From assembly GCA_002780065.1 (NCBI GenBank), contig PEWQ01000095.1, positions 1 to 24,040 of the forward strand: DNA of 24,040 bases, in the 5' to 3' direction. The translations under genes and the position numbers were made by a program. The notes beneath the pieces are model-generated. The model made no database searches, was not told the DNA's origin, and worked only from the letters and a program-made list of their open reading frames with translations. The first letter of the stretch is position 1; each line of letters opens with the position of its first letter. Positions 2,561-24,040 of this stretch are shown in pieces. This DNA comes from Candidatus Hydrogenedentes bacterium CG07_land_8_20_14_0_80_42_17. Lineage in GTDB: Bacteria > UBA8481.

Positions 2561-3216
2561 CTCAAAATAATTTCGTTCCGGTCTCTTCCGAAAAGCCTTC
2601 AGGATTTTATCGGCTTTGTCTTTATTTGGTCAGACTGATCGCATGGCTGCTCTTGAGATTATCTAAAAATAAAATATCAGGAAGAGAAAATATTCCGAAG
2701 ACAGGAGGTTTTATCTTTGCTTCAAACCATGCATCGCATCTTGACCCGCCTGTTTTGGCAGTTGCTTCTCCGCGCCAGTTGACTTATTTAGCAAAGATTG
2801 AACTTTTTAAAAATCCAGTTTTTGCAAGATTGATTAAATCTTTGGGAGCTTTTCCTATTCAAAGAGGCAAGGGCGATATGAAAGCTATAGAGACTGCCGC
2901 ATCATTTTTGAAAGCGGGACATGCTCTAGTTGTCTTTCCGGAGGGCACGAGAACATTGACAGGGAAAATAGGAAGAATTCGTTTCGGCGCCGCAAGGCTT
3001 GCGATTCTTGCGAATGCCCCGATTGTTCCGGCGTACATATCCGGAACATACAAAGCATGGCCAAAACACGGCAAAATCAAATCCGGAAATGTGACAGTCA
3101 AAATCGGAAATCCAATTCAACCCGAGAGCAGTGAAGATACTCCGTCCTCATGCGCGAAATTAACAAAGCGGATTGAAGAGATTTTTAAAAAATTCGAAGA
3201 GGAAGAGATATTGTAA
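2554..3216 (+). CDS. plsC: 1-acyl-sn-glycerol-3-phosphate acyltransferase (PlsC family)
   Basis: Transfers an acyl group to lysophosphatidic acid to make phosphatidic acid at the inner face of the cytoplasmic membrane. The 220-residue protein has a hydrophobic N-terminal stretch (about 20-37), the catalytic HX4D box NHASHLD (58-64), the substrate-binding FPEGTR block (128-133) and IVPAYISGT (157-165). The start at 2554 lies inside cmk, so translation is coupled; a weak GTATC precedes it rather than a strong ribosome binding site. The last 100 bases are overlapped on the other strand by the 3' end of hicA, a tail-to-tail arrangement. The charged C-terminus (KKFEEEEIL) ends at the TAA, exactly where the core of the opposing toxin gene also ends. 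Confidence 0.93.
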   Translation: MVTQNNFVPVSSEKPSGFYRLCLYLVRLIAWLLLRLSKNKISGRENIPKTGGFIFASNHASHLDPPVLAVASPRQLTYLAKIELFKNPVFARLIKSLGAFPIQRGKGDMKAIETAASFLKAGHALVVFPEGTRTLTGKIGRIRFGAARLAILANAPIVPAYISGTYKAWPKHGKIKSGNVTVKIGNPIQPESSEDTPSSCAKLTKRIEEIFKKFEEEEIL

Positions 3217-3422
3217 TCATCAATAGTAATTTCTATTTCTTGTAAAATTTCTCTAATTAAAGGACGAGCCAAAACTCTACCTTTGTGATGCGGCACAGTA
3301 GTAGTTCTTCCATCAGGATGTTTATAAAATGCGTGACTTCCTTTTTGACGAATCTTTTCAAACTTTAATAGGAATAATAAATTTTCCATTTTTTTAGCAT
3401 CAATAATCTGAAGTTTACTCAG
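3117..3422 (-). CDS. hicA: HicA-type mRNA interferase toxin, probable CTG start, extended C-terminus
   Basis: HicA toxins are small double-stranded-RNA-binding-fold ribonucleases that cleave mRNA and are neutralised by HicB. The core reads FEKIRQKGSHAFYKHPDGRT followed by TTVPHHKG and LIREILQEIEI; the His in GSH is the family's catalytic residue. The first ATG (3389) would remove the first helix. The same frame continues upstream as LSKLQIIDAKK, which matches the usual HicA N-terminus, and begins at CTG 3422-3420, overlapping the hicB TGA by four bases with a GAGGT six bases upstream. I therefore favour CTG, giving 101 residues. HicA proteins are usually shorter: about the last 33 residues here are read antisense through plsC, suggesting the native stop was lost. 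Activity is uncertain. Confidence 0.85.
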   Translation of the reverse strand: MSKLQIIDAKKMENLLFLLKFEKIRQKGSHAFYKHPDGRTTTVPHHKGRVLARPLIREILQEIEITIDDYNISSSSNFLKISSIRFVNFAHEDGVSSLLSG

Positions 3423-3640
3423 CTTGCTACCTCGATTTGTTGAATTCCCACAAATTCAGGCAATTGTTTTTTTGCTTCCGAGTCCATTTCCTCTAAGCAT
3501 AATTCGACTACTTCTTTAAGATTTTTTTGAAGTTCATCTAGAGTTTCAGCTTGGGTATGAGCACCGTGAATTCCTGGGACAACTGCTACATACAATCCAG
3601 TATCGGAGTCTTTTTCAACATAACCTGTTATTCTATACAT
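3419..3640 (-). CDS. hicB: HicB-type antitoxin, short form
   Basis: A 73-residue HicB-like protein, which binds and blocks the adjacent HicA. The sequence MYRITGYVEKD..TGLYVAVVPGIHGAHTQAETLDELQKNL..VVELCLEEM is the typical single-domain HicB fold (partially degraded RNase H-like), with the G-h-HTQAETLDEL block characteristic of the family. No additional DNA-binding domain follows, so any autoregulation would need another factor. A strong ribosome binding site AGGAGG (3650-3655) sits nine bases before ATG 3640. A possible -10 TATAAG lies at 3678-3683 but a convincing -35 is not seen. hicB precedes hicA and the two overlap by four bases, so antitoxin is made first. Confidence 0.93.
   Translation of the reverse strand: MYRITGYVEKDSDTGLYVAVVPGIHGAHTQAETLDELQKNLKEVVELCLEEMDSEAKKQLPEFVGIQQIEVAS
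3429..3433 (-). promoter_or_regulatory. Ribosome binding site supporting the CTG start of hicA
   Basis: On the reverse strand GAGGT lies inside the last codons of hicB, six bases before CTG 3422-3420. Its spacing is ideal for that CTG and too far (about 39 bases) from the first ATG at 3389, so it argues for a non-ATG start coupled to hicB termination. Confidence 0.6.
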
Positions 3641-3787
3641 TTTAAATGACCTCCTAATTTAGTGTCTTTAGATAACTCTTATAGTTTATTACATTGCTGT
3701 TATTTAAGGGATATTTAATTTTACTTAGTCTTGGTAGAAAATTATAAAGTTGTTGGCGCCGATGATGCAATGGCGTTCCTCTGCCCA

Positions 3788-3840
3788 GCACGTGCGAGGC
3801 GTCCATTGACGCGTAGCGCACGTGCCTCCTGATGAGATGC
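3788..3840 (+). repeat. Dispersed repeat, copy A (one 17-base unit)
   Basis: GCACGTGC (3788-3795), one 17-base unit GAGGCGTCCATTGACGC (3796-3812), then GTAGCGCACGTGCCTCC (3813-3829) and a GATGAGATGC tail. The unit contains the inverted repeat GCGTC-CATT-GACGC, and the unit is bracketed by two GCACGTGC palindromes. Copy B at 14003 has the same order with two units. Confidence 0.85.
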
Positions 3841-3935: not shown

Positions 3936-6212
3936 ATGAAAGCGTTTTCATTATCTATTCTAAATAAATATTGTGCGCGAATTTTATTCGGTTTCGCGTT
4001 CGCAATAGCTTTTTTTGCCACATCCTCGTCGGCTCAGCCTGAAAGAGTATTAAGAATTTGGGCGATGGGAGAAGAAGGAAAAAAGCTCGAAACTTTGATT
4101 AAACTTTTTGAAGCGGAGAATCCCGGAGTCAGAGTCGAAGCTCAATCAATTCCATGGGGTGCGGCTCATGCAAAACTTATTACTGCCGTTGTAGGAAAAA
4201 TTCCGCCGGATATTTCTCAAATGGGTACGACTTGGATGCCTGAATTTCGAGCAATGGACGCGCTCGAAAATCTGAATCCTTATATTGAAGCAGGAAAATT
4301 GTCCCGCGCAGATTTTTTCCCTGGCGCATGGGAGACTGTCAGTTATGACGAAGGAGTTTTAGGACTTCCTTGGTATGTCGAGACGAGATGCCTTTATTAT
4401 CGAAAGGACATTCTTGCATCTGTGGGCTTTGATCATGCTCCGAAAGATTGGAATGAATTAGTTGCGGTCGGAAAGGCTCTTGCCGGCAGACCGAATTCGT
4501 TCGGAATTAATCTGTCATTCTCTGATGAAGGATTATTTTCGATCTTTACATGGCAGGCCGGCGGGGAATTGCTGGAAATCAAAGATGGAAAAGTGAGCTC
4601 AAAGGTTCGAGAGGAACCTGTAAAACGCGGTCTGACTTTTTACGCAGATTTATTTAAAGAAAAGATTGCGCCGCTCGGAGAAGCAAAGGATATTTCTGTT
4701 GAACAAGGTTTTGATCTTGGAACAATGCCTATGTTCATATCAGGGCCATGGTCGATACATGTGCTCGATGAAGTGGCGCTGAATTCGAAAGGCAAATGGG
4801 CTATAGCGCCTCTGCCTAAAGGAGAAAAGTCCGCATCTTTTCTCGGAGGATGTAATCTCGTAATCTACAAGGATTCTCTAAACAAAGACCTCGCGTGGAA
4901 ATTTCTGGAGTTTGCTCTATCAACAAAAAATCAAATCGAGTGGTACAAAGCGAGCGACTGTCTGCCGCCAGGTCCGAAAGCATGGGAGGACACTCTGCTC
5001 GCCGCTAACCCGATGCTTTCTGCTTTTCGAATCCAGCTTCAATCTGCGCGGCCTACTCCGATGATTCCCGAGTGGGAACAGATTGGAGACGCAATTCGGC
5101 GCGAGATGGAAAAGGCTGTGAGAGGAACTAAAAGCCCTGACGATGCTCTTAAAGATTTGGATGCAGAGATTACTGAAATACTTAGCGCGCGCCCGGAAAA
5201 TCAGTCTGCATTCAATAAGTTATTGATACTCGGCGGCGCCGCCGTAATTTTACTCTTTGCTTTGCTTTACTATATGCTAAGACCTTTCAAAAAATCCGAG
5301 ATTGTCACGACTGGCGGATTGGATCTTAACGAGCACAAAGGTTACGGAAAATGGGTGGTGATATTTTTCGGACCTACTGCGGTTCTTCTTACAGTCTTTT
5401 TGATTCTGCCTGTTTTGGCCGCGTTTCTTATGAGCCTTACAAATTGGGATATCTATTCTGTTACAGACTGGCGAAAAGTCAGCGTTGTGGGATTTGACAA
5501 TTACGTGAAGATATTAAAGGACCCGCTCTTTTGGAAATCAGTGAAGAACACGCTGATATTTGCCGGTATCGGAGGACCATTGACAATAATAGTTTCGCTT
5601 TCGATGGCGCTTCTTTTGGAACGATTGACGCGCGCAAAGGCAATCTTCAGAACTGGTTTCTTTTTGCCGGTTGTCACTACGATGGTCGCTGTTGCCGTTG
5701 TGTGGCGTTGGATTTATCATCCTAAGTTTGGACTCCTAAATGCTCTATTGTATTATTTTGGATTTAGCGGAAAGGAGTGGCTTGGCGATCCAACGCTTGC
5801 GCTAGGATGTCTTATTGGAATGGCAGTCTGGAAGAACTTCGGCTACAACATGATAATCTTCATTGCGGGCTTGCAGAATATTCCGCATGTGTATTATGAA
5901 GCTGCGGAATTGGACGGCGCCGGGCGAGTCGAAAAATTTACAGACATTACTCTGCCGCTTCTCTTTCCGACTTTTATTCTCGTGACTATATTGACAACAA
6001 TAGGCTATCTGCAATTCTTTGCCGAGCCTTACATCATGACCGATGGAGGCCCGCTGGATTCGACTCTATCCGTTTCACTCTATCTTTATAGAAAAGGATT
6101 TAAGTTTTTCAAAATGGGTGAAGCCGCCGCCATGTCTTACATACTCTTCGTTATTATATTTATTTTCTCAATAGGACAGATGCTTTTAGCAAAAAAGAGA
6201 GAGACAAGATGA
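3936..6212 (+). CDS. ABC sugar importer: solute-binding protein fused to MalF-type permease
   Basis: One 758-residue protein joins two parts that are normally separate. Residues 1-33 are a signal peptide (cleavage likely SSSA|Q). Residues 35-420 are a type 1 extracellular solute-binding domain (IWAMGEEGKKLETLIKLFEAENPGV, DISQMGTTWMPEF, LPWYVETRCLYYRKD, FISGPW, FLGG). A membrane segment at about 428-448 follows, then a short basic linker and a six-helix permease (about 472-752) with the EAA loop EAAELDGAGRVEKFTDITLP (655-674) that contacts the ATPase. The extra helix brings the chain back to the cytoplasm so that the permease starts on the correct side. Substrate is unknown; the family carries mono- and oligosaccharides or glycerol phosphate. 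It overlaps the next permease by ATGA. No ATP-binding subunit or sugar hydrolase is encoded nearby. Confidence 0.93.
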   Translation: MKAFSLSILNKYCARILFGFAFAIAFFATSSSAQPERVLRIWAMGEEGKKLETLIKLFEAENPGVRVEAQSIPWGAAHAKLITAVVGKIPPDISQMGTTWMPEFRAMDALENLNPYIEAGKLSRADFFPGAWETVSYDEGVLGLPWYVETRCLYYRKDILASVGFDHAPKDWNELVAVGKALAGRPNSFGINLSFSDEGLFSIFTWQAGGELLEIKDGKVSSKVREEPVKRGLTFYADLFKEKIAPLGEAKDISVEQGFDLGTMPMFISGPWSIHVLDEVALNSKGKWAIAPLPKGEKSASFLGGCNLVIYKDSLNKDLAWKFLEFALSTKNQIEWYKASDCLPPGPKAWEDTLLAANPMLSAFRIQLQSARPTPMIPEWEQIGDAIRREMEKAVRGTKSPDDALKDLDAEITEILSARPENQSAFNKLLILGGAAVILLFALLYYMLRPFKKSEIVTTGGLDLNEHKGYGKWVVIFFGPTAVLLTVFLILPVLAAFLMSLTNWDIYSVTDWRKVSVVGFDNYVKILKDPLFWKSVKNTLIFAGIGGPLTIIVSLSMALLLERLTRAKAIFRTGFFLPVVTTMVAVAVVWRWIYHPKFGLLNALLYYFGFSGKEWLGDPTLALGCLIGMAVWKNFGYNMIIFIAGLQNIPHVYYEAAELDGAGRVEKFTDITLPLLFPTFILVTILTTIGYLQFFAEPYIMTDGGPLDSTLSVSLYLYRKGFKFFKMGEAAAMSYILFVIIFIFSIGQMLLAKKRETR

Positions 6213-12379: not shown

Positions 12380-12784
12380 ATGATCGACCCTGATGAGTAT
12401 GTAATAGTTCCGGCACTTCTTATCGGAAAGCGTGATTCTTCCGTTCAGTTCGAGGTTGTGGTTGTTGGCTTTTCCGACAATGGATTAGGTTTCAGATCTC
12501 GAGATACAAGGCTTGGGCTTTCTTCTGTTGAGTCTCTACTTCGTCAGCCATTCGAGTGCAAATTTAATGTTCAAAATTTAAATACAGATGAAATCATTGT
12601 GAGAATAATTCGAATTGAAGCATGCCGAAAAGATCCGGCTTATTTATATTTTGGCGCGGCGGATTTTTTAAAAATTTCAGATCTGGATCAGTTGATGTTT
12701 CAATCAGGAATAAAGAAATACGAAAAGAAGATTCATCCTCAGCCGATGATTGCTACTCCTCTTCCGCCTCCTACTAAGAAATGA
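12380..12784 (+). CDS. Small protein of unknown function, possibly PilZ-like
   Basis: A 134-residue soluble protein that I do not recognise with confidence. The pattern VPALLIGKRDSSVQFEVVVVGFSDNGLGFRSRD resembles the beta-barrel core of PilZ domains (a small residue-Ser-x-x-Gly-hydrophobic turn), with a later LYFGAADFL strand, but the arginine RxxxR element that binds cyclic di-GMP in PilZ is not evident. The C-terminus is rich in Pro and Lys (PQPMIATPLPPPTKK). It follows rex by 26 bases in the same direction with no separate promoter, so it is probably co-transcribed. Its last 11 bases overlap the 3' end of the convergent phosphoribosyltransferase-like gene. The upstream gap contains GGCTTAGCCTGAGCC, a trace of the GC-rich repeats seen elsewhere. 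Confidence 0.7.
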   Translation: MIDPDEYVIVPALLIGKRDSSVQFEVVVVGFSDNGLGFRSRDTRLGLSSVESLLRQPFECKFNVQNLNTDEIIVRIIRIEACRKDPAYLYFGAADFLKISDLDQLMFQSGIKKYEKKIHPQPMIATPLPPPTKK

Positions 12785-13931
12785 GGCTCTTAAGGTAATT
12801 TATTTTTTTTCTGCAAACGGGCTTAAAACTGCCTGGCTCAAGTGCAAATTTAATTCTTTCATCGCTCCAGAGCCATTTGAATCGAGAATAAAGAGTATTG
12901 CTTTCTTCAATAGTTATTCCGTCCCAGTAATTATTTTTATTAGCCATAAGAAGTTCAGGCGAGCCTTTTTTTAGTTCTGAAATATTTTCAAAATACATCT
13001 CAAGAGAAAATCGTGAGTTATATTCTTCCCAGAGTGAAAGATTTTTTTCGACTGCTATCTTCATCTGTTTCTCCCAGAAATTTAGAATGTCACGAATATG
13101 GTTGATAGGCTCAAATCCCTTTTTACCTCCGTCATAAATCACACAGCCTTCCAGAGCAGTAGGCATCTTTTCAAATTGAGAATGTTCGAACTCCGGCGCG
13201 AGCAATGCTCCAAATTTGTAATTCTTAAGTAGATCTGTGTCGGGGGAAGAGTTGTGAAGCGGAGTATTTTTATTTGCCAGAGCAAAACGTCCTTCCAGAT
13301 AAATCAGTATTGTTCGATCGTATTCAGGAAACTTATTCCTGAATATTGAATCCCATTTAGAGAGAATTTTTTCCGCTTCGATACAGCCTATTGTAATGAA
13401 AATAAAATTCTTGATAGTGATTTTATTGGATTCGAGAAAATGCATTACATATTCGATTGCATCATTCAGAGATATTCCTGACGCTACTATGTCTGCGGTA
13501 TAGATTGTTGCATTTTGAGGGATCTGAAATTTCCGATAAGAATTATCGCTGGTCTCGTATTTGCCGTTTTGAAGCACACGTTGACTTGATACGTAGGAAC
13601 TTGAGTGCCACTTGTAACCGAACGCATTGTTCAATGCTCTTCCAATTTGAAAATTCAGACTGCCTCTCAATATGTGATAGACATTGACCGTCTTTGAATC
13701 GATGCAACTTAGTCGTTCGAGTATATTCAACCCTTTAAGCGCGTTAATGATTCCGTTCGACATGAGTTTTGTGAAGTCGCAGTTAATGATTTCAGGATAG
13801 TTCATTAAATTTCTAGTATCGCGAGTAGAGACTATGTAACGCTTCAGCCTTTGCGAGAAATTTCCGCCTTCTATGGAATAGACAGAGACTGCTTCATCTT
13901 TGAATCTTCTTACTAGTTTTTCCGATTGCAT
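12774..13931 (-). CDS. Uncharacterised phosphoribosyltransferase-like protein
   Basis: A 385-residue cytoplasmic protein. Two segments look like a type I phosphoribosyltransferase: HILRGSLNFQIGRAL (86-100), comparable with the R-G-G/S-x-x loop that binds pyrophosphate, and IYTADIVASGISLNDAIEY (143-161), comparable with the PRPP signature (hydrophobics, D-D, hydrophobics, A/T-S/T-G-x-S/T). Only one acidic residue (Asp147) is present where most enzymes have two. The remaining C-terminal half (about 240-385: LLAPEFEHSQ, GCVIYDGGKKGFEPINHIRDIL, WSDERIKFALEPG) is not recognised. Substrate unknown; no obvious metabolic neighbour. It is a single-gene unit with its own promoter and converges on the 12380 gene with an 11-base overlap. 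Confidence 0.8.
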   Translation of the reverse strand: MQSEKLVRRFKDEAVSVYSIEGGNFSQRLKRYIVSTRDTRNLMNYPEIINCDFTKLMSNGIINALKGLNILERLSCIDSKTVNVYHILRGSLNFQIGRALNNAFGYKWHSSSYVSSQRVLQNGKYETSDNSYRKFQIPQNATIYTADIVASGISLNDAIEYVMHFLESNKITIKNFIFITIGCIEAEKILSKWDSIFRNKFPEYDRTILIYLEGRFALANKNTPLHNSSPDTDLLKNYKFGALLAPEFEHSQFEKMPTALEGCVIYDGGKKGFEPINHIRDILNFWEKQMKIAVEKNLSLWEEYNSRFSLEMYFENISELKKGSPELLMANKNNYWDGITIEESNTLYSRFKWLWSDERIKFALEPGSFKPVCRKKINYLKSLIS

Positions 13932-13968: not shown

Positions 13969-14002
13969 AATGAAAAAGGTGCTTGAGACGCATGCCTATG
14001 CT

Positions 14003-14200
14003 GCACGTGCGGGGCGTCCATTGACGCGGGGCGTCCATTGACGCGTAGCGCACGTGCCTCCAGATGAGATGTAATATTCCATCTCGCAAAGAACGTGTGA
14101 AATAATTGAAAAATGGAAATTGGAAAAATCAAATTTCCAATTTGCACTTTCCAATTTGCACTTTCCAATTTGCAATTTCAAATATAACGAGAGACGTTAT
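14003..14200 (+). repeat. Dispersed repeat, copy B (two 17-base units plus AT-rich module)
   Basis: Order: GCACGTGC (14003-14010); two identical 17-base units GGGGCGTCCATTGACGC (14011-14027, 14028-14044); GTAGCGCACGTGCCTCC (14045-14061); a GATGAGATG link; then an AT-rich module. In the latter, AAATTGGAAA (14117-14126) and TTTCCAATTT (14134-14143) form a perfect 10-base hairpin, and a 14-base word CCAATTTGCACTTT is repeated at 14137 and 14151 with a variant at 14165. ATAACG/CGTTAT (14184-14200) is a further small hairpin at the edge. Bases 14011-14187 match the reverse complement of 23880-24040 closely. The whole 13932-14271 spacer otherwise holds only promoters. Confidence 0.9.
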
Positions 14201-23072: not shown

Positions 23073-23110
23073 CAATTCAACACGAACGGTAGCCGCAGGC
23101 TTTAGCCTGC
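23073..23110 (+). repeat. Dispersed repeat with GCAGGCT palindrome before the lipoate-ligase-like gene
   Basis: Bases 23073-23094 match 10971-10993. They run into GCAGGCTTTAGCCTGC (23095-23110), a 7-base stem with a TT loop. GCAGGCTTTAGCCTGC is a common intergenic repeat in many genomes. It lies in the 72-base gap between the protease gene and the next start. Confidence 0.75.
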
Positions 23111-23125
23111 GTACTTTAGTGCTGT

Positions 23126-23743
23126 GTGATGAACGATTTTGATATTCTTCCCGCTTCCGAATTGATGGAACGTGATTTTAGAAATCTTGAATCCGTGATA
23201 AAAGACGGAAAGACTCGAGTGGAGATATATCAGTTTGCAAATCCTTCCATCACTGCAGGAAGGTTTGCGAAGGTTGAGGAAGAAACGATAGAGAGATGGA
23301 AATCGTTAGGACATGATTTTGCGAGAAGACCGACCGGCGGCGGGATTTTGAGGCACGAAAAAGATTTATGTTTTGGAGTTGCATTTATTTCGAAAGAAAT
23401 CGGAATGGAAAAATCTTATCGAATAGTTTCAAATGCTGTTCAAGACGCGCTGAAAGAGCAAGGAGTGGCGACGGCTCCGGCAGAGAAGAAGATCGGCAGA
23501 GACATTCCTTCGAGATGCTTTGACGGAGCATTGGGCTTCGAACTTCTTTTTCAAGGAAAGAAGATATTAGGTCTTGCAGGCAGAAGGATTCGAAACGCTG
23601 TGCTTATTCAAGGCTCTCTAATAATAGAGAGAGATTACGACAAGGATATAAAAATACTTGGCACAGGTCCTGAGATCGATCTCAGAAAAAGGTGTCATAT
23701 TGATACTTTGACACTTTCGTTGCGTAACTTATTCTGCATGTGA
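23126..23743 (+). CDS. Lipoate-protein ligase A-like (BPL/LplA/LipB family)
   Basis: Enzymes of this family attach or transfer lipoyl, octanoyl or biotinyl groups to carrier proteins. The 205-residue protein has the RRPTGGG motif (67-73) followed by HEKDLCFG, a mid-protein helix and the lysine-bearing segment QGKKILGLAGRRI (143-155) with VLIQGSL (159-165), all in family order. It lacks the C-terminal accessory domain of full LplA, and it is shorter than octanoyltransferase LipM. The GTG 23126 and the following ATG 23129 are both possible starts; no ribosome binding site is clear. The last 18 residues (RCHIDTLTLSLRNLFCM) are encoded by a dispersed repeat and probably replaced the natural C-terminus. 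No E2 or H-protein target is adjacent. Confidence 0.87.
   Translation: MMNDFDILPASELMERDFRNLESVIKDGKTRVEIYQFANPSITAGRFAKVEEETIERWKSLGHDFARRPTGGGILRHEKDLCFGVAFISKEIGMEKSYRIVSNAVQDALKEQGVATAPAEKKIGRDIPSRCFDGALGFELLFQGKKILGLAGRRIRNAVLIQGSLIIERDYDKDIKILGTGPEIDLRKRCHIDTLTLSLRNLFCM
23686..23714 (+). repeat. Dispersed hairpin repeat forming the lipoate-ligase-like 3' end
   Basis: AAAAAGGTGTCATAT starts a 24-base match (22 identical) to the reverse-strand copy at 19208-19185. GTGTCA (23692-23697) pairs with TGACAC (23709-23714). It is read in frame as KRCHIDTLT. Confidence 0.65.
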
Positions 23744-23746
23744 GAG

Positions 23747-23797
23747 GCATCAATGGACGCTACGCGTTAATGGACGCCCCGCATCAATGGACGCCCC
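23747..23797 (+). repeat. Tandem array of three 17-base units (block C, left side)
   Basis: Three units at 23747-23763, 23764-23780 and 23781-23797 in exact 17-base register, of the form GCATCAATGGACGCCCC with small changes. This is the reverse complement of the units in copies A and B. The array starts four bases after the stop codon of the lipoate-ligase-like gene. Confidence 0.85.
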
Positions 23798-23880
23798 GCT
23801 CCACGCAATTTCCTGCTGTCATTGCGAGCACCGAAAGTGCGAAGCAATCTCTTAATGCTAACAGATTGCTGGTATGTTAT
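23798..23880. repeat. Repeat of the TCATTGCGAG..GAAGCAATCT type
   Basis: The core GTCATTGCGAGCACCGAAAG then TGCGAAGCAATCTC belongs to a widespread class of bacterial intergenic repeats. GCAC (23828-23831) pairs with GTGC (23837-23840) and flanking TTGC with GCAA. AGCAATCT (23843-23850) pairs exactly with AGATTGCT (23863-23870). I see no open frame. Confidence 0.65.
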
Positions 23881-24040
23881 TATATTTGAAATTGCAAATT
23901 GGAAAGTGCAAATTGAAAATTTGATTTTTCCAATTTTCATTTTTCAATTATTTCGCACGTTCTTTGGAAGAGGAAAAATTGCATCTCATCTGGAGGCACA
24001 GGCGCCCCGCGTCAATGGACGCCCCGCGTCAATGGACGCC
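23881..24040 (-). repeat. Dispersed repeat, copy C, inverted relative to copy B and running off the window
   Basis: Reverse-complemented, this segment follows copy B in order: 17-base units (24009-24025 and 24026-24040 onward), GTGCCTCCAGATGAGATG link, CAAAGAACGTGCGAAATAATTG, then the AT-rich hairpin module with CCAATTTGCA words. It has one 14-base word fewer than B. The match is strong across about 160 bases, with a few small substitutions. The end of the repeat lies beyond the window. Confidence 0.88.

Follow-up and report, generated by a model that had tools for sequence, protein, structure and literature searches.

We analyzed a contig of 24,040 nucleotides (PEWQ01000095.1, assembly GCA_002780065.1; our contig C166) from Candidatus Hydrogenedentes bacterium CG07_land_8_20_14_0_80_42_17, in which a 17-base motif (GGGGCGTCCATTGACGC) recurs in three blocks, designated A, B and C. 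This whole stretch is hereafter called the window. Seven 17-mers with at most three mismatches occur in it, compared with 0.01 expected from shuffled sequence. By anatomy, location and copy number, the motif belongs to a family of the kind known as repetitive extragenic palindromic (REP) sequences, bacterial interspersed mosaic elements (BIMEs) and REP doublets forming hairpins (REPINs). The 17-mer is not the whole element, however: it serves as the unit that fills the loop of a larger hairpin with covarying arms, and two types of such hairpins occur linked as heterodimers, features that a preliminary description of the window had missed. We consider it probable that the three blocks represent a dispersed palindromic element of the REP/BIME type, whose copies have often decayed or undergone rearrangement, and the family as a whole probably consists of short palindromic DNA elements that were once mobile.

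Units nested in a covarying outer hairpin

Alignment of the loci showed that the 17-mers occupy the loop of an outer hairpin, in which GCACAGGCG stands before the units and CGCCTGTGC after them, followed by a CTCCA tail. The outer stem is 9 bases long, and its two arms vary in concert, with three main versions: AGG (GCACAGGCG/CGCCTGTGC), GTG (GCACGTGCG/CGCACGTGC, the version found in blocks A and B) and GCA (GCACGCACG/CGTGCGTGC). The variable arm triplet agreed in 39 of the 49 two-armed elements, whereas 20,000 shuffles of the partners averaged 21.7 agreements and never exceeded 33. Because the arm pairs covary in this manner, with 39/49 matching among three arm types, the outer hairpin is conserved. 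When the arms were not presupposed, the stems formed between array flanks were also longer than those formed with shuffled partners (6.34 versus 5.38, maximum 5.83).

The 17-mer itself forms a 5-bp stem with a 4-base loop (CATT) and is preceded by G-N-R-G. With few exceptions, the distance between the outer arms equals 3–5 bases plus 17 per unit, for zero to six units; unit-less forms have 3-base loops (e.g. GCACAGGCG-TGG-CGCCTGTGC), one-unit forms span 20–21 bases, and bare arrays contain up to nine units. Relative to the CTCCA tail, unit polarity is constant in all but two of 71 cases (69:2). Predicted single-stranded DNA folds place the units inside the outer stem, with z values from –3.7 to –4.7 under DNA parameters and from –2.2 to –4.0 under RNA parameters.

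Genome-wide abundance, specificity and gene context

The genome is a 2.39-Mb draft of 207 contigs, approximately 87% complete, with a contamination value of 0.72. A 14-base core of the unit (GCGTCCATTGACGC) occurs in it 127 times exactly and 221 times with at most one mismatch, and the same core written backwards does not occur at all. A blastn-type search with block B as the query returned 87 matches in the same genome. The preliminary description, which had read the blocks as a dispersed, modular and intergenic REP-like family, had proposed that all copies be counted and aligned; we mapped at least 111 loci, using approximately 309 kb of stretches around the repeats from 91 contigs, so that all locus counts are lower bounds. 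These genome-wide copies support that reading, and the blocks are not unique to their contig. The end of the window is a repeat-induced assembly break rather than an artefact, since a contig end is no more than 250 bases away at 62 of the 111 mapped loci.

Outside this genome, the block B query matched neither the only genome of the same order (G001) nor plasmids. An exact 32-base tandem had no match in general genome contigs or viral contigs, a tandem with a free spacer base was absent from viral contigs, and an Rfam search gave no match. Among 40 other genomes, one holds a single copy of the 14-base core and the only same-order genome holds none. The outer core with its tail was found across approximately 85,000 genomes as one lone copy, in a Bipolaricaulota genome, and the 8-kb locus around it contained no second copy, and hence no sign of a shared family. 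Within everything searched, the family is apparently specific to this lineage.

We then compared the positions of the elements with those of the genes. Overlaps with open reading frames (ORFs) of at least 150 aa numbered only four across the family and are probably effects of ORF calling. Within 500 bases, 87 gene 3΄ ends faced elements, compared with 35 gene 5΄ ends (P = 2.8e-6), and elements lay in 19 convergent gaps versus 4 divergent gaps (P = 0.003), gap kinds that are about equally frequent along any genome. The same preference for gene 3΄ ends has been published for REPs (PMC3733652). Local GC skew around the elements displayed no clear pattern, as judged without a formal test.

Dimers, fusions and rearranged copies

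Approximately 10 loci contain a complete dimer of about 106 bases, each arranged head-on as type II–linker–type I. The type II half has GTG or GCA arms, or variants of these, and the outer sequence CATCTCATCTGGAG; the linker of about 20 bases reads TGGATAAGCATGCGTAGCTT; and the type I half has AGG arms and the outer sequence CTCCATGACGAG, its partner always being a type II version. The tail stands on a single side in 36 of the 38 elements with matching arms. All four two-tailed elements, by comparison, are mismatched fusions in which a type II arm and a type I arm enclose either a single unit or an empty loop, and for these a deletion between the two dimer units would be the simplest reading.

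The outer flanks of blocks B and C continue into an AT-rich module, which has a dispersed distribution of its own, as indicated by dozens of separate matches over query positions 98–180 and by 123 motif hits in the fetched stretches. Other rearrangements were observed in passing. In collapsed type II elements at L151 1725–1750 and G000:C190 near 21550, TGGAGGCACGTGC is followed directly by the linker, and these look as if the entire hairpin had been deleted between the self-palindromic GCACGTGC arms. At G000:C175:22836–23023, a 138-base composite (arm, AT module and unit) is duplicated in tandem, which is a repeat of modules on a larger scale.

Copies in the window

The features of the window are as follows, with fold z values for single-stranded DNA.

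3788–3839, + strand: block A, type II (GTG) element with one unit; left arm GCACGTGCG at 3788–3796, unit at 3799–3812, then on the right a GTAG-type spacer, right arm CGCACGTGC at 3817–3825 and tail CTCCT plus GATGAGATG; fold z = –4.5.
13990–14002, + strand: half linker (GCATGCCTATGCT) to the left of block B, as in II–I dimers; type I partner absent.
14003–14071, + strand: block B, type II (GTG) element with two units at 14014–14027 and 14031–14044; left arm at 14003–14011, right arm at 14049–14057, tail CTCCA plus GATGAGATG; fold z = –3.7.
14088–14187, + strand: AT-rich module of block B (AAAGAACGTGTGAAATAATTG...TTTCAAATATAA), one of the dispersed copies of this module in the genome.
23089–23111, + strand: GTAG-tagged REP (GTAGCCGCAGGCTTTAGCCTGCG), a second dispersed family with 44 genome matches at no more than three mismatches.
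23737–23797, – strand: inner array of block C, three diverged units at 23747–23760, 23764–23777 and 23781–23794; decayed arm GCATGTGAG at 23737–23745, overlapping the stop codon of an lplA-like ORF.
23817–23849, – strand: TGTC/CGTC-type REP (TGTCATTGCGAG...CGAAGCAATC) nested in block C, of a separate REP superfamily (PMC3733652).
23876–23964, – strand: AT-rich module of block C.
23982–24040, – strand: end array of block C, units at 24009–24022 and 24026–24039, the contig ending inside; type I (AGG) right arm plus tail TGGAGGCACAGGCGC at 23991–24005, carrying the type II outer extension CATCTCATC.

Several modules are combined in block C: a type I arm that bears a type II extension, an AT module, a TGTC-type REP and a decayed array. 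The preliminary description had counted the 17-mer once in A, twice in B and three plus at least two times in C, and every position was recovered: 3796–3812 in block A (+ strand, one mismatch), 14011–14027 and 14028–14044 in block B (+ strand, both exact), and 23747 (three mismatches), 23764 (one), 23781 (one) and 24009 (exact) in block C (– strand). A further core lies at 24026–24039, where this last copy is cut off by the contig end; the window is the entire contig, which breaks within the block C array. The flanking modules that the blocks were said to share are present (GCACGTGC, CCTCC(A/T)GATGAGATG and the AT-rich tract). The blocks had also been placed entirely in intergenic space, which is correct in general except for the decayed arm near 23737 that runs into the lplA-like ORF.

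Several neighboring features were noted. Block A adjoins a HicA toxin gene (Pfam HicA_toxin, 3117–3641, – strand) with an apparent HicB-like ORF upstream, and positions 3936–6212 encode a 758-aa ABC transporter protein in which solute-binding and permease domains are fused in a single chain. A 385-aa ORF beside block B (12774–13931, – strand) has no Pfam match. The GTAG-tagged REP of 23089–23111 adjoins elements of the 17-mer family at several places in the genome, and together with the TGTC/CGTC-type REP (Rickettsia RPE-like) it brings at least three REP classes within 1 kb.

Probable local growth of the arrays

Copy number had been described as varying in exact 17-base steps. Genome-wide, 126 of 143 neighboring units lie 17 bases apart and the other 17 lie 18 bases apart, in a search confined to steps of 16–18 bases. 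Within arrays, 62% of comparisons between inter-unit spacers showed identity, compared with 19% by chance. Because spacers are homogeneous within arrays, growth appears to be local: units may have been duplicated after the arrival of the element, by slippage or template switching at the GC-GNG-GCG junction.

Candidate transposases

The preliminary description reported no gene for spreading the repeats, which holds for the window; the genome, however, carries four Y1 (HUH) genes resembling REP-associated tyrosine transposases (RAYTs), all of which match NF047646 at scores under its curated cut-off. The search for a REP-associated transposase that it had suggested thus yielded four RAYT-like ORFs whose tie to the 17-mer family is unproven. 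One of them (on C2), cut by a contig end, lies 130 bases downstream of a type I element without units, but since element density would give such a neighbor by chance with a probability of 0.29–0.42, this is not evidence of a tie. Another, on C205 (L102 2778–3410), contains GGGACAGGGC-type palindromic repeats inside its coding sequence, with more about 2 kb downstream (C205:12350–12443); with its own small GTAG/GGGACAGGGC family, this gene resembles a REPtron for a different repeat.

A search for DDE-type transposases, covering two Pfam families in the draft genome, found one DDE_Tnp_1 gene (C127:401–1243), which lacks paired ends and has a collapsed type II element downstream, and no rve transposase. 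DDE and rve transposases accordingly found no support as drivers. No ORF lying between nearby REP loci looked transposase-like by eye. No autonomous partner was identified, because the RAYT neighbor is at chance level, the DDE gene has no paired ends and rve is absent. The dimers are reminiscent of REPINs in form (PMC3116915), and a RAYT acting in trans is the leading, although unproven, mechanism.

Relation to known systems

In the broad sense of REPs and BIMEs, the family comprises a high-copy extragenic palindrome that forms a covarying hairpin, favors gene 3΄ ends, avoids divergent gaps and also occurs as inverted pairs joined by a short linker. The tags of the two REP superfamilies are another matter. 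The GTAG superfamily carries an unpaired GTAG at the 5΄ foot of its hairpin. Here, the triplets before the G of the unit are mostly GTG (46) and GAG (35), with GTA in 16, and the foot of the outer hairpin is without GTAG. The CGTC superfamily has an unpaired CGTC/TGTC and a stem of 8–9 bp starting with AT, whereas here the outer stem starts with GCAC and the CGTC of the unit is paired. Because the defining tags of both fail, we file the family under neither superfamily.

REPs and BIMEs of E. coli, Pseudomonas, Stenotrophomonas and other bacteria are likewise short extragenic palindromes present in more than 100 copies and in mosaic clusters, with the same inverted pairs, short linkers and gene 3΄-end preference (PMC3733652, PMC2817692, PMC8266576). 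Unlike in those systems, the loop here is occupied by a second hairpin repeated in tandem in varying number, a conserved GTAG tag is lacking, and no RAYT gene is clearly tied to the family as a cognate REPtron. The REPINs of P. fluorescens SBW25 share an inverted doublet of about 71–110 bases as the apparent dispersal unit, and their single hairpins look like remnants, as here (PMC3116915); the halves of our dimers, in contrast, are of two different arm types (II and I) that fold separately. Short-stem GTAG REPs such as Thauera GTAG-1, found via a tandem repeat database, and that of the Marinomonas REPtron Mb have a 5-bp stem and a 4-base loop like the 17-mer (PMC3733652, PMC8266576), but these are free, whereas the 17-mers sit in the loop of another palindrome and mostly follow GTGG, GAGG or GGAG. 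CGTC/TGTC-tagged REPs of the Rickettsia RPE type are represented by one copy within block C, and their CCA tails resemble the CTCCA of the family; the latter, however, has no unpaired CGTC tag, that of the 17-mer being paired.

In a small literature search, we did not find described an array of second-order hairpins of fixed polarity in a REP loop that varies from unit-less to multi-unit in one genome. The nearest precedents are the short-stem REPs of Thauera and Marinomonas and the variable REP loops of Bradyrhizobium GTAG-14. Elements of this kind are known; the way in which the loop is built appears to be a new variant.

Alternative explanations

Several observations weigh against a REP/BIME-type origin of the blocks. 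Blocks A and B lie in divergent gaps, which is atypical for the family, and element orientation relative to genes is unbiased (32:29). The tetranucleotide before the hairpin varies (GTGG, GAGG, GGAG, GTAG), with no conserved GTAG. The RAYT-like ORFs score 57–71 bits, below the curated NCBIfam cut-off of 80, and none of the four is clearly flanked by the 17-mer family. For a comparison of filled and empty sites, the family is absent from the only genome of the same order, where the contig with a 50% homologue of the gene beside block B ends too soon for synteny to be judged.

The dimers end in matching TGGAGGCAC/GTGCCTCCA, which could be read as the terminal inverted repeats (TGGAGGCAC...GTGCCTCCA) of a miniature inverted-repeat transposable element moved by the DDE transposase of an insertion sequence, and the sole DDE_Tnp_1 gene does have a collapsed type II element nearby. 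That gene nevertheless has no second end, and its neighbor is a II-plus-linker remnant also found elsewhere; outward-facing pairs of type I tails 0.7–2.5 kb apart were not seen among the listed tails, no rve transposase was found in the draft genome, and many copies consist of one hairpin tailed on just one side. We therefore regard this origin as unlikely. Still less probable is that the 14-base palindromes are sites of a global regulator or nucleoid protein whose binding is tuned by copy number. Palindromic sites at a fixed 17-base spacing, with blocks A and B in divergent, promoter-containing gaps, would suit such operators, but the genome-wide preference is for gene 3΄ ends and convergent gaps, the outer arms covary as a stem, unit-less copies are dispersed as well, and spacers are homogenised locus by locus.

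Blocks B and C are indeed inverted copies, as had been described (90% identical over 157 bases, the longest exact tract being 36 bases within the AT module), and recombination between them could in principle flip the intervening 10 kb. Nothing distinguishes this pair from many other copies, however. They are no dedicated pair, because the AT module that they share is common to dozens of loci, and they make up only two of the family's more than 100 copies; no recombinase gene was recognized in the window, and an inversion switch is very improbable. An assembly or binning artefact might be suspected from the many copies at contig ends and from the draft state of the genome (207 contigs, approximately 87% complete), but 49 of the 111 loci are well within contigs, arm type, unit number and flanks vary from copy to copy, and contamination is low (0.72), so that we find it the hardest explanation to credit.

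Under the preferred REP/BIME-type explanation, the dimer would be dispersed in the manner of REPs and REPINs, as a single-stranded hairpin substrate of an HUH (Y1) RAYT-like transposase acting in trans. Gain and loss of 17-mers would be local events, caused by slippage during replication or by template switching where GC-GNG-GCG junctions and hairpins recur, and deletion between the two units of the dimer would give the mismatched two-tail hybrids. Most copies would by now be passive and would affect mRNA 3΄ ends, if at all, in the way that REPs do. The classification of the family is secure; for its transposase and function, this is what we infer. A bolder idea is that of a two-level repeat, in which the loop of a mobile REP-type hairpin holds a satellite of 17-base hairpins, variable in length and fixed in polarity. 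Array length would change fast at each locus and tune how strong the structure at mRNA 3΄ ends is, as a phase-variable output regulator spread by transposition, which seems to us improbable.

With this family, REP-type repeats are now known from a further lineage, one that is deep-branching and uncultured. The family is also an unusually readable case, in which dispersal, recorded in dimers and arm types, is separable from local growth of the nested array, recorded in 17-base steps and spacer homogeneity, whereas the two are usually confounded in BIMEs. Models of how the arrays grow can be tested directly in this genome, since it contains forms without units, with one unit and with several side by side.
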